Positions 3,500 to 33,645 of a DNA stretch of 33,645 nucleotides are shown here, piece after piece. Position 1 is the first letter of the stretch. Every line of letters begins with the position of its first letter. Source of the stretch: an uncultured Alphaproteobacteria bacterium (GTDB lineage Bacteria > Pseudomonadota > Alphaproteobacteria > CAAHEQ01 > UBA3637). The stretch spans positions 1 to 33,645 of the forward strand of contig CALXZG010000002.1 of the NCBI GenBank assembly GCA_944393195.1, given 5' to 3'. The notes beneath the pieces were generated by a model that was not told where the DNA came from, did no database searches, and saw nothing but the letters and a program-made list of their open reading frames with translations. The position numbers were made by a program, and so were the translations under genes.

Positions 3500-3937
3500 A
3501 TGACAATGAAAAATGAATCCGGCCGTTCTATGGTCGAAATGTTGGGTGTGTTGGCCATTATCGGCGTTCTGTCCATCGGTGGTATCGCCGGTTATACAAT
3601 GGCGATGAACCGCTATCGTGCCAACGAAATCATTGATGCCGCTTCCAAAGTTGCGATTATCGGTATGACGATGAATAATGGAACAGGTGGTCAGGCCTCT
3701 CTGGCAGATATCGGAAACCCGAAGATTCCGTGTACAACATCAATAGCTGCAACCACTGATACGAATGGTGCTCAGGGTTTAGTGCAGGTTACTTTAAATG
3801 ACAGTTGTTCAGGTGTTGCCACTGTTCTTAATACTATTGCCGGGGATCGTTTAAGAGGTGCCGGTTGTACTGACAATGGTTCTTGTACTTTAAATTTCGG
3901 TGAACGCGCCGCTGCCAATGATGATGACGATGCATAA
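3500..3937 (+). CDS. Short type IV pilin-like protein A
   Basis: The 145-residue protein begins MTMKNESG then RSMVEMLGVLAIIG, a prepilin-type leader with predicted cleavage after Gly8, Glu at mature position 5 and a hydrophobic helix of about 20 residues. It is probably inserted in the inner membrane and may be processed into a pilus or pseudopilus subunit; the assembly machinery is not in the window. Four Cys residues in the C-terminal half could form disulfides. The tail is acidic (NDDDDA). Codons 1-46 are almost identical in DNA to those of the genes at 4005-4499 and 4974-5411; after about base 3637 the sequence diverges sharply. AAGGA sits 8 bases upstream of the ATG. A hairpin terminator follows at 3959-3991. 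Confidence 0.85.
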   Translation: MTMKNESGRSMVEMLGVLAIIGVLSIGGIAGYTMAMNRYRANEIIDAASKVAIIGMTMNNGTGGQASLADIGNPKIPCTTSIAATTDTNGAQGLVQVTLNDSCSGVATVLNTIAGDRLRGAGCTDNGSCTLNFGERAAANDDDDA

Positions 3938-4004: not shown

Positions 4005-4499
4005 TTATCCGGCACCACCCTGGCCACCACCCTGGCCACCACCCTGGCCACCACCCTGGCCACCACCCTGGCCAGGAGCACGGGCGTTTTGTTCACCAAA
4101 GTCCAATTGACAGGCGGCAGCGTTATCGACTGTACAACCATTTGTTTCCAAACGGTTAGCAGCCAATGTCGCGATAATGTCGGCAACACCGTCACATGCA
4201 TCGTCCAATTTGATGGAAACAACACCCGTCGCATTGGAAGCGATATCCGTATCAGCAGCGATACACGGAATTGTGATGTTGGAACCTAAATCGCTGATAT
4301 CAGCAGCACCACCGGCACCGGCGTTAGCCGTCATAGCAACGATAGCGACTTTGGAAGCCGTATCAATGATTTCGTTGGCACGATAGCGGTTCATTGCCAT
4401 TGTATAACCGGCGATACCACCGATGGACAGAACGCCGATAATGGCCAACACACCCAACATTTCGACCATAGAACGGCCGGATTCATTTTTCATTGTCAT
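4005..4499 (-). CDS. Short type IV pilin-like protein B with Gly-Gln repeat tail
   Basis: The 164-residue protein has the same leader and helix as proteins A and C (MTMKNESG, RSMVEMLGVLAIIG). Its mature part is nearly identical to that of C (4974-5411) up to LDFGEQNA, with small differences such as GSN versus GNN and DDACDG versus QETCDG. It then ends in five GQGG units encoded by five perfect 12-bp repeats. It is convergent with gene A and divergent from gene C. The upstream 133 bp is an inverted copy of the DNA upstream of A. Function as a pilus or pseudopilus subunit is inferred from the prepilin signature only. Confidence 0.85.
   Translation of the reverse strand: MTMKNESGRSMVEMLGVLAIIGVLSIGGIAGYTMAMNRYRANEIIDTASKVAIVAMTANAGAGGAADISDLGSNITIPCIAADTDIASNATGVVSIKLDDACDGVADIIATLAANRLETNGCTVDNAAACQLDFGEQNARAPGQGGGQGGGQGGGQGGGQGGAG
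4013..4072 (-). repeat. Five perfect 12-bp tandem repeats in the 3' end of pilin-like gene B
   Basis: The unit on the plus strand is CACCACCCTGGC, present five times without change. In the protein it gives five Gly-Gln-Gly-Gly blocks just before the stop. The 12-bp unit keeps the frame, so copy number could change by slippage without breaking the gene. Genes A and C lack it. Confidence 0.9.
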
Positions 4500-4973: not shown

Positions 4974-5411
4974 ATGACAATGAAAAATGAATCCGGCCGT
5001 TCTATGGTCGAAATGTTGGGTGTGTTGGCCATTATCGGCGTTCTGTCCATCGGTGGTATCGCCGGTTATACAATGGCAATGAACCGCTATCGTGCCAACG
5101 AAATCATTGATACGGCTTCCAAAGTCGCTATCGTTGCTATGACGGCTAACGCCGGTGCCGGTGGTGCTGCTGATATCAGCGATTTAGGCAACAACATCAC
5201 AATTCCGTGTATCGCTGCTGATACGGATATCGCTTCCAATGCGACGGGTGTTGTTTCCATCAAATTGCAAGAGACATGTGACGGTGTTGCCGACATTATC
5301 GCGACATTGGCTGCTAACCGTTTGGAAACAAATGGTTGTACAGTCGGTGGCGCTGCCAACTGTCAATTGGACTTTGGTGAACAAAACGCCCCCGATCCCG
5401 ATGGCGAGTAA
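4974..5411 (+). CDS. Short type IV pilin-like protein C
   Basis: The 145-residue protein begins with the shared prepilin-type leader and helix (MTMKNESG, RSMVEMLGVLAIIG) and carries the mature domain found also in B: AIVAMTANAGAGGAADISDL, four Cys, and the closing LDFGEQNA. It ends PDPDGE where B has the Gly-Gln repeats. The start is fixed by AAGGA 8 bases upstream and by exact conservation of the leader. A terminator follows at 5436-5464. As with A and B, no assembly ATPase, prepilin peptidase or secretin gene is near, so the product must use machinery coded elsewhere. Confidence 0.85.
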   Translation: MTMKNESGRSMVEMLGVLAIIGVLSIGGIAGYTMAMNRYRANEIIDTASKVAIVAMTANAGAGGAADISDLGNNITIPCIAADTDIASNATGVVSIKLQETCDGVADIIATLAANRLETNGCTVGGAANCQLDFGEQNAPDPDGE

Positions 5412-14215: not shown

Positions 14216-15619
14216 TTAGCGACACAGGGCGTAGCCGGCGAGGTGCCAACTGCCAGACTCGACCGCGCCTGAACTGCTATTCCATACATAATACGAACTA
14301 CACCCGCTTAATTTAGTTGCTGTCCAATAATGCTTACCCGTCGTGTGTGCCCATCCACTACAACTACCATAATAATTATTTGCCTTAACTGTTGCTAATT
14401 CTTCCGCTGTACACCCGTCTGTCACCGGTGCTAAACGCTTCCCAAGTGCATCACAGAAATTCTCCGCCGCATGATATGACATATAATCCGTTGACGCTGT
14501 GTATTCGGTTCCGTTAATTGTTACACTCGTGCTACTGATTGTTTCACACGTTCCGTTCAAGGCCTGACAACCATAGGTCGATTGGCAATATTGATTGTCC
14601 CCGGTGCAATCCGCATTCGTCAAACATTCTCCCTCTGTTTTAGTTGAAGTACATTCATAACTGTACGTTGATGCATTATATTGGCACCATTCCCCCTCAC
14701 CGCAACATTGATTAGCGCACGCTTCTCCATCCGGACAATAGACACAATAGTATCCACAAGGAGCACTCCCCTCTTTCGCACCCGGACATTTGGTACATGT
14801 ACCCATATAGGAATATCCGTGCCCGACAACCGGATTATCCGCATCCGGACACGTTAAACATTGACTTCCATATAAAAACTCTCCCTCATCACAATCTTCA
14901 TCAACCACACATTCCCCGGTGTTAAAGTCATGATACTCATTCGCACCACATTCCTGCGCCCACGGATCATCCCCGTTCTCTTCTCCCCCTTCTCCCGGGA
15001 CTAACGAATTATCCAATGTATTCGCAAATGCAAACAACATCTCATTATCCCCTTCGGCGCACGTTGTATCGTCATCGACCACAACACCTCCGACCGCTGT
15101 TTCTACCGGCATATTCCAATCCTGTTTCAGAATTTCATCACACACCCGTTGCGGCACATTTGATACCGTCAAAGCAAAAAATTTCTTATCCCCCACATAG
15201 TCGTTTATGGTCACAACATCATACAATCCTTTAATCCGGCCGTTGTCCCCATATTCCGATAAATTAATATCGTGTCCCAAGATGCGTTGTTGACTCGCCG
15301 TCACGGCTCTCTTTTTCACTTCATTGATAATGTCATTCGCATTCATCTTGTCCATCGCATATCGATACCCGGCCACCCCGCCAATCGACAGGACACCCGC
15401 CACCGCCAGAACACCCAACATCTCAACCATACTCCGTCCCCGCTCACCACGGCTACTTTCCGTCATCCCTGCGAAAGCAGGGATCTTTGAACACGCACTC
15501 CCTACTGTTAAACCGTCATCCCCGACCTGATCGGGGGTCTTATGACACACACCCGATGCCCCTAAATCACTATTTTGATACACACCACTTTTTCCGTTTT
15601 TATTTTTTGTTTCAGTCAT
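14216..15619 (-). CDS. Long Cys-rich type IV pilin-like protein with REP-derived leader extension
   Basis: The 467-residue protein has four parts: a 61-residue leader, the prepilin-like helix RSMVEMLGVLAVAG with YRYAMDKMNANDIINEV, a Cys-rich middle (about residues 215-360) with many short CxxC and CxC spacings like small disulfide-rich modules, and a C-terminal domain with YMSYHAAENFCDALGKRLAPV and YWTATKLSGCSSYYVWNSSSG that resembles the DUF1566/C-type-lectin-like fold, often a binding domain at the cell surface. The paralogue at 1-185 has a 9-residue leader. Here about 156 bp have been added in frame, including two REP-like units (peptides HKTPDQVGDDG and SKIPAFAGMT). AAGGAG at good distance supports the start at 15619. 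Role in adhesion is inferred. Confidence 0.85.
   Translation of the reverse strand: MTETKNKNGKSGVYQNSDLGASGVCHKTPDQVGDDGLTVGSACSKIPAFAGMTESSRGERGRSMVEMLGVLAVAGVLSIGGVAGYRYAMDKMNANDIINEVKKRAVTASQQRILGHDINLSEYGDNGRIKGLYDVVTINDYVGDKKFFALTVSNVPQRVCDEILKQDWNMPVETAVGGVVVDDDTTCAEGDNEMLFAFANTLDNSLVPGEGGEENGDDPWAQECGANEYHDFNTGECVVDEDCDEGEFLYGSQCLTCPDADNPVVGHGYSYMGTCTKCPGAKEGSAPCGYYCVYCPDGEACANQCCGEGEWCQYNASTYSYECTSTKTEGECLTNADCTGDNQYCQSTYGCQALNGTCETISSTSVTINGTEYTASTDYMSYHAAENFCDALGKRLAPVTDGCTAEELATVKANNYYGSCSGWAHTTGKHYWTATKLSGCSSYYVWNSSSGAVESGSWHLAGYALCR
15460..15490 (+). repeat. REP-like unit inside the coding sequence of the Cys-rich pilin-like gene (type 1 stem)
   Basis: CGTCATCCCTGC-GAAA-GCAGGGATC forms a hairpin and matches the units at 13655 and 30834. 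On the coding (minus) strand it encodes SKIPAFAGMT, in frame, immediately before the prepilin motif. Confidence 0.85.
15513..15557 (+). repeat. REP-like unit inside the coding sequence of the Cys-rich pilin-like gene (type 2 stem)
   Basis: CGTCATCCCCGACCTGATCGGGGGTCT matches the unit at 13755 and carries the tail TATGACACACAC, a variant of CATGACACGCAC. On the coding strand it encodes CHKTPDQVGDDG in frame. Confidence 0.85.
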
Positions 15620-22185: not shown

Positions 22186-22214
22186 TTGACAGAATCCCTT
22201 TCTTCTGTTATTCT
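22186..22214 (+). promoter_or_regulatory. Promoter of the gene pair at 22245
   Basis: TTGACA (22186-22191) and TATTCT (22209-22214) with 17 bases between, 30 bases before the start codon. Confidence 0.7.
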
Positions 22215-22244
22215 ATAAAAAGAGAGCAACCAAAGGAGGTTCCC

Positions 22245-22604
22245 ATGACACCTATTGATACTGACGATCTGGCCCCCGAAAAAATCGGCTGGCTGCGTGC
22301 TTTTGAAAACAGCAAAATAACGGATGAGGAATTAGAGGAAGCCACGGCTGATATCCCGGCTCCAACGAAACAACCGGCAACGCCCGTTCCACCGGCATCG
22401 CCAACTCAAACCGATACAAAATCACCTATTCGGGAACAATTGGAACAGGCTGCCCAACAACCCAAAGCTGAACAAGCCACGTTTGATGAACTGTTTCCCG
22501 ACTTTTTGCCGAAAGAACCACGCCACTGTTGCGATCATGACGACGACACACATGTCATGCGCCATCCCGGTGGTTGGCGAAAAAATCGCGGGCGGGAGGG
22601 GTAA
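22245..22604 (+). CDS. Small hypothetical protein with His/Cys/Asp-rich tail
   Basis: I do not recognise this 119-residue protein. The N-terminal 45 residues are acidic and helical in appearance (LAPEKIGWLRAFENSK, EELEEATADI), followed by a Pro/Thr-rich linker (about 46-70), another helix with FDELFPDFLPKEP, and a tail HCCDHDDDTHVMRH that could bind a metal ion. The start at 22245 is set by a strong AAGGAGG; an earlier in-frame start lies upstream of the promoter. The next gene starts 3 bases after its stop, so the two are probably made together. It may be a partner or adaptor of the exported protein that follows; that is inference. Confidence 0.75.
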   Translation: MTPIDTDDLAPEKIGWLRAFENSKITDEELEEATADIPAPTKQPATPVPPASPTQTDTKSPIREQLEQAAQQPKAEQATFDELFPDFLPKEPRHCCDHDDDTHVMRHPGGWRKNRGREG

Positions 22605-22607
22605 TTG

Positions 22608-23405
22608 ATGCTGGCGCGCCTGCTGCTCGTTCTGTTTCTAATCTGCCAAACAGGAACCGCCGCGGCGCAGCTATACGGTTTGATAGATAACCGTGCCAAA
22701 ACCGCCACATGGGAACAAGCGACCGACAAACAAAGTTTGGTGCAACACCTGACCCAAAACCTGACATCTGATACGGATAAAGCCCGCGCCATCGCTGCAT
22801 GGATTGCTTTTCAAATGCAACGCGACGGTTATCGTCGTTATGTTCTGATCAAAGCTTCCGACCAAAATCGACTGGCTCCGGAACCACTGCCGAACGATCC
22901 GTTTATCACCCGAATCGGAACCCCGCGCGATTTTGCCGAACTATTCCAAGAACTGGCCTCTCTGGCCGGTTTAAAAGCCGTCACAATCGACGGTTTTGCC
23001 GGTAAAAATATCCGCGCTTTCCGGTATCAGGCACCCAAATACCGCGCCGGTGAAACACTCTACCATTTTTGGACACAAACCAACTATCCCCTGCAACGCT
23101 ATCAGGCAACATGGAACGCGGTTCAAATTGATGATGAATGGCGCTTGCTCGATACCTACTTTATGATCGCCGATGACGACCTGTACGCCGCTAAAACCAT
23201 TCGCACCGATTTTGCCATGAAATCATTCCTGAAACAACGCCTGCGCCGCCACCCGACCGTGCGCACACTGACCTCCGCCAAACGAATCGATAACGATTAC
23301 TTCTTGGCCAAGCCGCGCCGGTTTGCCAAAACCCACTTTCCGCTCGACTCCCAATGGCAATTGCTGTCCGTTCCCTTAACGTGGGCCAGCTTTATCAACC
23401 AATAA
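22608..23405 (+). CDS. Exported transglutaminase-fold protein, apparently without catalytic Cys and His
   Basis: The 265-residue protein begins with a signal peptide (MLARLLLVLFLICQTGTAAA, cleavage near Ala20). Residues about 55-185 follow the transglutaminase-like (kyphoscoliosis-type) layout: DTDKARAIAAWIAFQMQRDGY, then RDFAELFQELASLAGLKAVTIDGFAG, then TWNAVQIDDEWRLLDTYF. In active members the first block is C-x-x-[YF]-A; here Pro106 stands at the Cys position. The block H-x-W-N has Ala167 in place of His. The Asp (182) is kept. So it is probably a binding or structural pseudo-enzyme. The alignment is by eye. It ends with an 11-base overlap with the convergent hslO. Confidence 0.72.
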   Translation: MLARLLLVLFLICQTGTAAAQLYGLIDNRAKTATWEQATDKQSLVQHLTQNLTSDTDKARAIAAWIAFQMQRDGYRRYVLIKASDQNRLAPEPLPNDPFITRIGTPRDFAELFQELASLAGLKAVTIDGFAGKNIRAFRYQAPKYRAGETLYHFWTQTNYPLQRYQATWNAVQIDDEWRLLDTYFMIADDDLYAAKTIRTDFAMKSFLKQRLRRHPTVRTLTSAKRIDNDYFLAKPRRFAKTHFPLDSQWQLLSVPLTWASFINQ

Positions 23406-31680: not shown

Positions 31681-33645
31681 TTAATCAAAATCGATTTTGG
31701 TCGGATTGGTCGTCAAGGTTACCCCACCAACGGCACCAACCGCATTATCCATAAGCGATTGACCGGTGGCACCATAGTCCGTATCCACCAACCCATGCCA
31801 TGTCATCCCTTCAAACTGAGTTCCTTTAAACAAAGTATCCGTCGAATCCTTTGTCGCAACGCCCCACCGGCTTAAATTCATCGTCCGTGTCACGTTACCT
31901 TTGGCATCCTTGATAATAACAACCGAAGACTTGTCCTTTGCATAATTTTGTGTAATAGTTCCCGTCACATTTCCGTCGGTATCCTTCGTCGTTTGCACAA
32001 TATTCTGCGTTCCATCCGGATTCGTCGTCGTCACCGTTTCAACGGATTTACCATCCGCATCTGTTTGAATATCCGTCTCAATAATGGTTCCGTCTTTTTT
32101 CGTAACAGCAGTCACCTTAGAAGACGACCTGTCCGCATTAACCGTTGTGACAGAGCTTACTTTTTCACCGGTCTCATTATTAACGGCATCGTATGTTTCG
32201 GTATAACTCTCAACCGTTCCGTCTGCCTTTAATTTTTCCGTTTTTGTTCCACTGCCACTGCTTAATACCTGACCATCGGCATCCACAATGGCTGTACTGC
32301 TACTCGTCACTCGGTTTCCGTTGGCATCATACGCCACATTTTTCGAATCATTAATCGTATTTCCCTGAGGATCCTGCGCAACGGTCTCCCGTGTCGAACT
32401 GACGCGCCCGTTGGCATCTGTCTTTTCCGTCACCACATTCGATAAAATCGAGTTGCCGTCCTTATCCTTCGTCTCACCCGTCCTATCAACTTGCTTCTTC
32501 GTCACGCTGCCGTCGGGATTGTTCGTCTGACTGTCTTCCTTAATTAAAGCACCCGACGCATCAAAAGTCGTGTTACTGTACTCCCCCGTCACATTATTTT
32601 TCATTTGTGTTTCTGTGACACCATAAGAATTCGTCGTCGTTGTTTCCGTTTTTAACACCTTACTGGCATCATTCGGATCCGCAACAACCACCGACTTTTC
32701 TTTGGAACCGTCCGCCCGTTCCGTCGACGTTATCGTTGTTCCCGTCCGCTCATCAAAGCTGCTTGTTTTGACATCCCCGTTGGCATCCGTGTATTTCGTT
32801 TCACTGGCCACTACTTTACCATCAACCGTCACTTCCTTCTTATAACCGGTTTCCGTGTTAACGGTTTCCGTCGTCGAAGCCAATTTTCCATCGGCCGCAT
32901 ACGCCCATTCCGTCGTTCCTGTTGGGTACGTTTCTGTTACGGTTTTTGTTCCGTCTTTCCGCTCAATCGTCGTCGAAACCGCCCCGGTTTCCTCATTCGC
33001 CTTAACGGTTGTTTTGTTACCAAGGGCATCCGTCGTTTCTACCACATCAATTTCGACATCATGCATTTTACCGTCATTTCCCAGCCTCTGCACAATCTCC
33101 GTCGAACTCTTTGATGAACTTCCATCCGGATATTGCTTTTCGGTCACCCAATTGCCGTTTTCATCCTTATAGTTTGTCATGGTCGACTCTGTTGTTAGGC
33201 CATAACCGCTTTGAACCGTTGTCACCGTTTTGCCCGTTTCGGGATCCGTCGTCACCGTCTGGATAATATCCCCCCGTGTTGTCACCTCTTTTGATTCCAA
33301 CACATTTCCTTTTTCATCCGTCTTTGTTGTTACGGCAACCTCTTCATTATTGGCACCATACGTATATTTGGTCTCTGTCACTTCGCCCGTATCACTGTCA
33401 ACTGACTTGACACCAACTTTGTTCCCCGACTCATCATAACTCGTTGTTGTCGTCACAACCGAATCTCCGGTGAAAAGTCCCCCTTTCTTCGTACTTGTTT
33501 CTACTTCTTCCGTGATCTGACCATTTTCATCATATACTGTTTTCTTCGACGATACCACATCACCGGCAAAAACACCCATACCGCCTTCCGAAGTCACCGT
33601 TGTTGTTTCTTCAATTTTTCCGTCTGCATTTTTTTGACGGTTTAC
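31681..33645 (-). CDS. Thr/Asp/Gly-rich repetitive protein, C-terminal part (cut by window edge)
   Basis: The reading frame stays open to base 33645, so the N-terminus is missing; the GTG at 33597 is internal. The visible 654 residues are tandem beta-like units of about 18-30 residues, each with a turn such as YDENGQITEE, TDEKGNVLES or DADGKSVETV followed by Thr/Val-rich strands. The spacing and the x-D-x-x-G-x-x-x-x turn recall Rhs/YD-repeat or toxin-stalk proteins, although the classic YD motif is sparse. No Cys is present. The last 65 residues (after MNLSRWGVATKDSTDTLF) are not repetitive and may be an end cap or sorting domain. Probably a large secreted or surface protein; the secretion route cannot be seen. 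Confidence 0.85.
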   Translation of the reverse strand, partial: VNRQKNADGKIEETTTVTSEGGMGVFAGDVVSSKKTVYDENGQITEEVETSTKKGGLFTGDSVVTTTTSYDESGNKVGVKSVDSDTGEVTETKYTYGANNEEVAVTTKTDEKGNVLESKEVTTRGDIIQTVTTDPETGKTVTTVQSGYGLTTESTMTNYKDENGNWVTEKQYPDGSSSKSSTEIVQRLGNDGKMHDVEIDVVETTDALGNKTTVKANEETGAVSTTIERKDGTKTVTETYPTGTTEWAYAADGKLASTTETVNTETGYKKEVTVDGKVVASETKYTDANGDVKTSSFDERTGTTITSTERADGSKEKSVVVADPNDASKVLKTETTTTNSYGVTETQMKNNVTGEYSNTTFDASGALIKEDSQTNNPDGSVTKKQVDRTGETKDKDGNSILSNVVTEKTDANGRVSSTRETVAQDPQGNTINDSKNVAYDANGNRVTSSSTAIVDADGQVLSSGSGTKTEKLKADGTVESYTETYDAVNNETGEKVSSVTTVNADRSSSKVTAVTKKDGTIIETDIQTDADGKSVETVTTTNPDGTQNIVQTTKDTDGNVTGTITQNYAKDKSSVVIIKDAKGNVTRTMNLSRWGVATKDSTDTLFKGTQFEGMTWHGLVDTDYGATGQSLMDNAVGAVGGVTLTTNPTKIDFD

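Follow-up and report, generated by a model that had tools for sequence, protein, structure and literature searches.

What does an exported protein do when it keeps the scaffold of a transglutaminase and lacks the catalytic cysteine and histidine? The question is raised by the second of two adjacent genes in a 33,645-nucleotide stretch of DNA from an uncultured alphaproteobacterium (the window), corresponding to contig 2 of an assembly 1.15 Mb in size and 88.6% complete. An earlier note on the sequence had described a two-gene unit at 22245-23405, and we find its two open reading frames there, at 22245-22604 (119 amino acids, here called X) and 22608-23405 (265 amino acids from the ATG), both on the forward strand, with 3 bases between the stop of the first and the ATG of the second.

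The second protein scores 24.7 bits with the Pfam family PF01841 (Transglut_core), whose cut-off is 23, and at E ≤ 1 no Pfam family beyond PF01841 was found in it. Its relatives number 59 after exclusion of an 84-residue fragment (L089, from genome G040); the intact rows L054, L064, L072 and L078 were left out before the 55-row alignment A1, and the near-identical rows L042 and L090 before A3. PF01841 matches 55 of 55 rows of A1 at E ≤ 0.1. An AlphaFold model from 55 natural rows has a pLDDT of 92.1 and a pTM of 0.87, and its best matches in VIA-align are FAP246 (Z 14.8) and TglA from Streptococcus pyogenes (Z 14.1), with the next best at 9.2. The same two proteins lead the Foldseek search, and the sequence profile of the family finds both (E 2e-10 for FAP246 and 4e-15 for TglA). 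Pfam, the model and the two fold searches agree on the transglutaminase scaffold that the earlier note had proposed, and the predicted papain/transglutaminase-like fold and the placement in the transglutaminase-like superfamily (PF01841) carry high confidence. A putative hydrophobic signal peptide, read from the sequence, spans approximately residues 1-21 (22608-22670, + strand), where the relatives also have a hydrophobic N-terminus and the model has a helix (residues 2-15), and the protein is probably exported to the periplasm. At the other end, the relatives share a conserved tail, H.P.D..WQLL..P....F (residues 238-263; 23319-23396, +), in which H243 and P245 are nearly invariant over the 55 rows.

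In the alignment with 36 intact relatives, residues 106, 167 and 182 fall in the columns of the catalytic Cys, His and Asp, and the profile places them opposite the Cys, His and Asp of TglA (PDB 9crn). The window protein has Pro106 (22923-22925, +) and Ala167 (23106-23108, +) at the first two of these columns and keeps Asp182, as had been read from the sequence before. Among the 59 relatives the triad is complete in 36, three are Ala-His-Asp, and 20 have lost both Cys and His, while the Asp is kept in 59/59. The double-loss proteins combine their three residues as PAD (six), SAD (five), SSD (four), PSD (three), AAD (one) and ASD (one). They form one clade, supported at 96/89 in a tree built without the insert described below and without both catalytic columns, and at 97/96 once three rows from outside the order are added (trait columns left out). 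Cys and His are each absent in all 20 members of the clade, and intact relatives exist outside it, which answers whether homologues of the window protein always lack the two residues. The refutation test set in the earlier note (a fold unlike transglutaminase, or an intact triad in close homologues under another alignment) did not overturn its reading. A double loss shared by 20 of 59 relatives as one clade is more than chance. The triad is complete in the two most distant rows (L036 and L037), as expected if the residues were lost and not gained.

The three Ala-His rows are placed among intact rows, and outside the order one relative is Ser-His (G207) and two are Ser-Trp (G063 and G194), the Asp being kept in all; these three have 8-10 residues where the double-loss clade has its insert. 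The maximum-likelihood tree requires Cys to change three times and His twice. A single clade of all 26 Cys-less rows was not rejected (p-AU 0.107), nor was the joining of the 20 double-loss rows to the Ser-Trp rows (p 0.109), whereas their joining to the Ala-His rows was rejected (p 0.016). Because these single-origin tests are mixed, independent losses of the Cys are likely, not proven. The Ala-His rows (L048, L049 and L050, genus g8) are a second type of Cys loss, with Cys replaced by Ala, His kept and no insert; their genomes contain one PF01841 match each.

The 43 family genomes examined, all draft assemblies, are also the whole of the order sampled; 42 carry a relative of the second protein and 20 carry a full-length double-loss member, in host genomes of 1.1-1.8 Mb. 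A profile of the double-loss form matches 8 of 385 genomes in a sample of the class, three of them outside the family of the window, and 1 of 398 in a sample of the phylum, which is the window's own. Double-loss and intact members occur together in 11 of the 20 genomes (all ten of genus g11, plus G001), as would suit a regulatory pseudo-subunit, that is, a dead protein that would associate with, and control, an intact paralogue of the same cell. However, the other nine (G000, G003, G006, G007, G008, G009, G013, G041 and G042), six of which are at least 94% complete, have no intact family relative, and nothing but the dead protein exceeds the PF01841 cut-off in them, G042 having an additional match below it. 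The intact members of g11, moreover, are scattered over several divergent clades, and we regard control of an intact paralogue as improbable.

The gene is embedded in a compact locus. On one side lies a divergent gene that we take to be tpiA, and on the other a gene on the opposite strand, presumably hslO. Ahead of X there is a promoter-like site, TTGACA-N17-TATTCT (22186-22214, +; consensus score 10/12), followed by the Shine-Dalgarno sequence AAAGGAGG (22232-22239, +). Fourteen of the 20 double-loss loci adjoin a divergent tpiA-like gene, five do not and one (G009) is at a contig end. In 13 of the 14, an open reading frame of about 90-306 amino acids sits between the tpiA-like gene and the transglutaminase-like gene, so that the arrangement is found in 13/20 loci and five genera. 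In all 13, an exact TTGACA and a -10-like box, spaced by 16-17 nt, lie 25-39 nt before the open reading frame and are followed by a Shine-Dalgarno sequence, a recurrence beyond chance. When 120-nt stretches were shuffled by mononucleotides, the observed promoter score was equaled in 0-4 of 1000 shuffles for eight loci and in 63-79 of 1000 for five, the window's included; in G001, which is without the upstream open reading frame, the best promoter-like site scores only 9/12. By position, the two-gene unit with its own promoter-like site is real in 13 of the 20 loci, which bears out the earlier proposal of a unit with its own promoter, and the layout suggests that X and the transglutaminase-like gene are co-transcribed.

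Nine relatives outside the clade (L039, L040, L045-L050 and L052), intact forms together with the three that lost only the Cys, lie directly behind a gene that we take to be corC-like; the double-loss clade does not, and is found elsewhere, mostly beside tpiA. Other parts of the window hold pseudopilin-like proteins (3500-3937, +; 4005-4499, -; 4974-5411, +; 14216-15619, -) with a near-identical N-terminus (GRSMVEMLGVLA..GVLSIGG.AGY) and divergent C-termini. A 2-kb stretch holds three of these genes, their strands alternating; it looks as though a shared 5' part had been joined to different tails. A repetitive, threonine/aspartate-rich protein of 638 amino acids (31681-33597, -) presumably consists of RHS-like repeats.

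The first protein, X, is as it had been described: 3 bases upstream, acidic (pI 4.7; rich in Pro, Ala and Gln), with an HCCDHDDDTH tail and of no known family. Ankyrin-like repeats, suspected from the sequences, may be present, but Pfam gave no match over a cut-off for seven X proteins. No signal peptide is visible in the sequence of X, which is apparently cytoplasmic. A model of an X protein from g11 is mediocre (pLDDT 68) and mostly helical, and no PDB match to it was found at E ≤ 0.001. X sequences are hardly conserved between genera and are recognizable within groups only: the window with G003, G006/G007 with G041/G042, and the g11 set. The alignment score of the window and G003 proteins is 89, against a maximum of 58 in 2000 shuffles. 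A search of the 43 family genomes with the window X gave no convincing match besides its own copy; G003 came at E 0.018, and the best other match (E 0.002, in G031) does not share a contig with the transglutaminase-like genes of that genome. One common X family was considered and rejected, as a profile comparison joins just G006/G007 and G041/G042 (81%) and leaves the window/G003 group, the g11 group and G008 unlinked to the rest. Whether the pair stays together, a point raised at the outset, thus has two answers: the genes do by position, and the sequence of the first protein scarcely persists between genera.

The suggestion of a metal-binding tail in X found no support, and as a family trait we reject it. 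HCCDHDDDTH is seen in this genome only, and the sole recognizable homologue (G003) has no counterpart to it; with the motif confined to the window, metal binding is unsupported. The X of L041 has a stretch containing Cys and His, SCPHMHDKKH, at a similar place, in a protein that is unalignable to the window X. A further motif at the end of X, WxKNRGR, overlaps in the window a purine-rich stretch that is a possible ribosome site of the transglutaminase-like gene, so its conservation may be at the level of DNA and not that of a protein motif.

The tight arrangement of the genes raises the idea that X and the pseudo-transglutaminase act directly on each other, X for example holding or guiding the precursor before export. 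Adjacency behind one promoter-like site in 13 loci from five genera would fit such a two-protein system, as would the abutting genes (a 3-nt gap in the window and a TGATG overlap in G003) and the purifying selection on X (dN/dS 0.15-0.22, six pairs). Yet the transglutaminase-like protein has a signal peptide and none is visible in X, so that any direct contact would have to precede export. X is also missing beside the transglutaminase-like gene in G001, G013, G020, G021, G022 and G024, and it diverges far faster than its neighbor. Direct action of the two proteins on each other is therefore unlikely in our judgment.

As judged from the alignment, the active site of the double-loss proteins is rebuilt and not merely broken. 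Between the Cys-helix and the His-strand, an insert specific to the clade (approximately residues 134-161; 23007-23090, +) measures 27-32 residues in 20/20 double-loss rows and 0-11 in 39/39 others. It is modeled as a flexible loop with a short helix (pLDDT block means of 77, 53 and 69 over residues 131-160; helices at 147-155 and 160-165). Around the kept Asp182 the motif has been remodeled to D-T-Y-F/W-M (residues 182-186; 23151-23165, +). Tyr165, Thr183, Tyr184, Met186, Met204 and Leu208 are fixed in 16/16 non-redundant double-loss rows, while 30 non-redundant intact rows favor a different residue at each of these positions. The reverse applies to Tyr72 and Asp73: they are present in 30/30 of those intact rows, and the double-loss rows have Arg/Lys and Asp/Asn in their place.

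Such strict residues might mean that the protein is still an enzyme and works through other side chains, for example Asp182-Thr183-Tyr184, Tyr165 or His243. Tyr165, Thr183, Tyr184 and Met186 are invariant in the 16 rows, as is Asp182, and the papain-like superfamily includes cases of active sites that have migrated (PMC10318531). However, the only conserved His, His243, is kept in 30/32 intact rows and is not a replacement, there is no fully conserved Cys, and the substitutes vary (Pro, Ser or Ala for Cys; Ala or Ser for His), a spread that speaks against a replacement nucleophile. A relocated activity strikes us as quite improbable. The mature part is free of Cys in 7/20 double-loss members, the window protein among them; in the remaining 13 the only Cys falls in the column of residue 117, which holds a Cys in 1 of 32 intact rows, and some of these 13 could carry out Cys-dependent chemistry. 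The residues around 117 (22953-22961 in the window) are some three turns down the former active-site helix.

The frames are open in 20/20 full-length double-loss members, and dN/dS within the clade is 0.05-0.20 (nine close pairs), as compared with 0.07-0.19 for intact relatives (five computable pairs, two more being saturated). By these sequence measures the dead form is a conserved, selected protein and not a decayed gene. Together with the single 20-member clade and its newly fixed residues, they agree with the earlier suggestion of selection for a non-catalytic role. That both Cys and His are gone might reflect a functionless, decaying gene or an alignment artefact, which is scarcely credible given the open frames, the low dN/dS, the conserved promoter-like site and Shine-Dalgarno sequence of the unit, 30 invariant columns among 18 rows and a confident transglutaminase-like model.

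We propose that the product of the second gene is a transglutaminase-like protein of the periplasm that is catalytically dead and derives from an intact Cys-His-Asp ancestor. After loss of Cys and His, the cleft would have been rebuilt into a binding surface by the insert of about 28 residues and the fixed Tyr165, Thr183, Tyr184 and Met186. Its most likely role would be to bind, without catalysis, a protein or peptide of the envelope, as a scaffold or an allosteric regulator, with co-transcription of the fast-evolving, apparently cytoplasmic X. The signal peptide, the conserved fold and the rebuilt active site all point to a periplasmic binding protein, and the binding function is suggested by analogy. 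On balance we consider it probable, with considerable room for doubt, that the protein is a binding or scaffold pseudo-transglutaminase of the periplasm, analogous to Cyk3 and co-transcribed with X. The further suggestion that the pair forms an envelope or cell-wall module has the signal peptide as its sole basis and may apply. More tentatively, we speculate that binding is the old and primary role of this exported family, that catalytic residues were lost more than once (in the double-loss clade, the Ala-His proteins of g8, the Ser-His protein of G207 and the Ser-Trp proteins of G063 and G194), and that one lineage rebuilt its dead site for binding and kept the gene in one operon with that of a cytoplasmic partner that diverges rapidly; this wider scenario is possible, though we would not expect it to hold.

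The proposed binding protein can be compared with several known systems. Intact relatives of the same family (PF01841, Cys-His-Asp; for example L046 of G011) share the fold, the hydrophobic N-terminus, the Asp and the C-terminal H.P.D..WQLL tail at about 30-34% identity, but they keep Cys and His, lack the 28-residue insert, have other residues at 165, 183, 184 and 186 and lie in another neighborhood. TglA is alike in its transglutaminase core, but its aligned positions carry the complete Cys-His-Asp set. LapG (PDB 4fgo), an active Cys protease, has a periplasmic papain/transglutaminase-like fold that is a weak fold match only (Z 8.1); the window protein has no Pfam family of that type at E ≤ 1 and no triad. 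FAP246, from the Chlamydomonas central pair (PDB 7n6g), is the best structural match at 21% identity and has Ser at its catalytic Cys column, but it is a large axonemal protein in which the His column is kept. The H.P....WQLL..P tail that follows the core aligns with FAP246 weakly (5.5 bits only), and such a tail after the core, as in FAP246, may be a link to Cyk3.

Pseudo-transglutaminases are already known from eukaryotes (Cyk3, EPB42 and FBXO21), the latter two being named as inactive in PMC10318531. In open-licence PMC literature, including passages of PMC4758748, PMC10318531 and PMC10919355, we found no description of a conserved, exported bacterial lineage of this kind. Fungal Cyk3 has a transglutaminase-like domain without the catalytic Cys, binds the chitin synthase Chs2 and needs this domain to stimulate it, thus acting on a wall-polymer synthase, and mutation of its His and Asp abolishes function (PMC4758748). 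The analogy is imperfect because the His lost here is retained in Cyk3, which requires both His and Asp for function; Cyk3 is also an intracellular cytokinesis protein with an SH3 domain, for which the window protein, with PF01841 as its only Pfam match at E ≤ 1, has no equivalent. If the wider, more speculative scenario holds, bacteria would have their own equivalent of Cyk3 in this protein, a pseudo-transglutaminase of the periplasm by which an envelope-polymer machine is activated or anchored. Since intact, Cys-less and double-loss forms coexist in one bacterial family, a comparison of close relatives offers a direct test of the timing of, and the reason for, the loss of catalysis.
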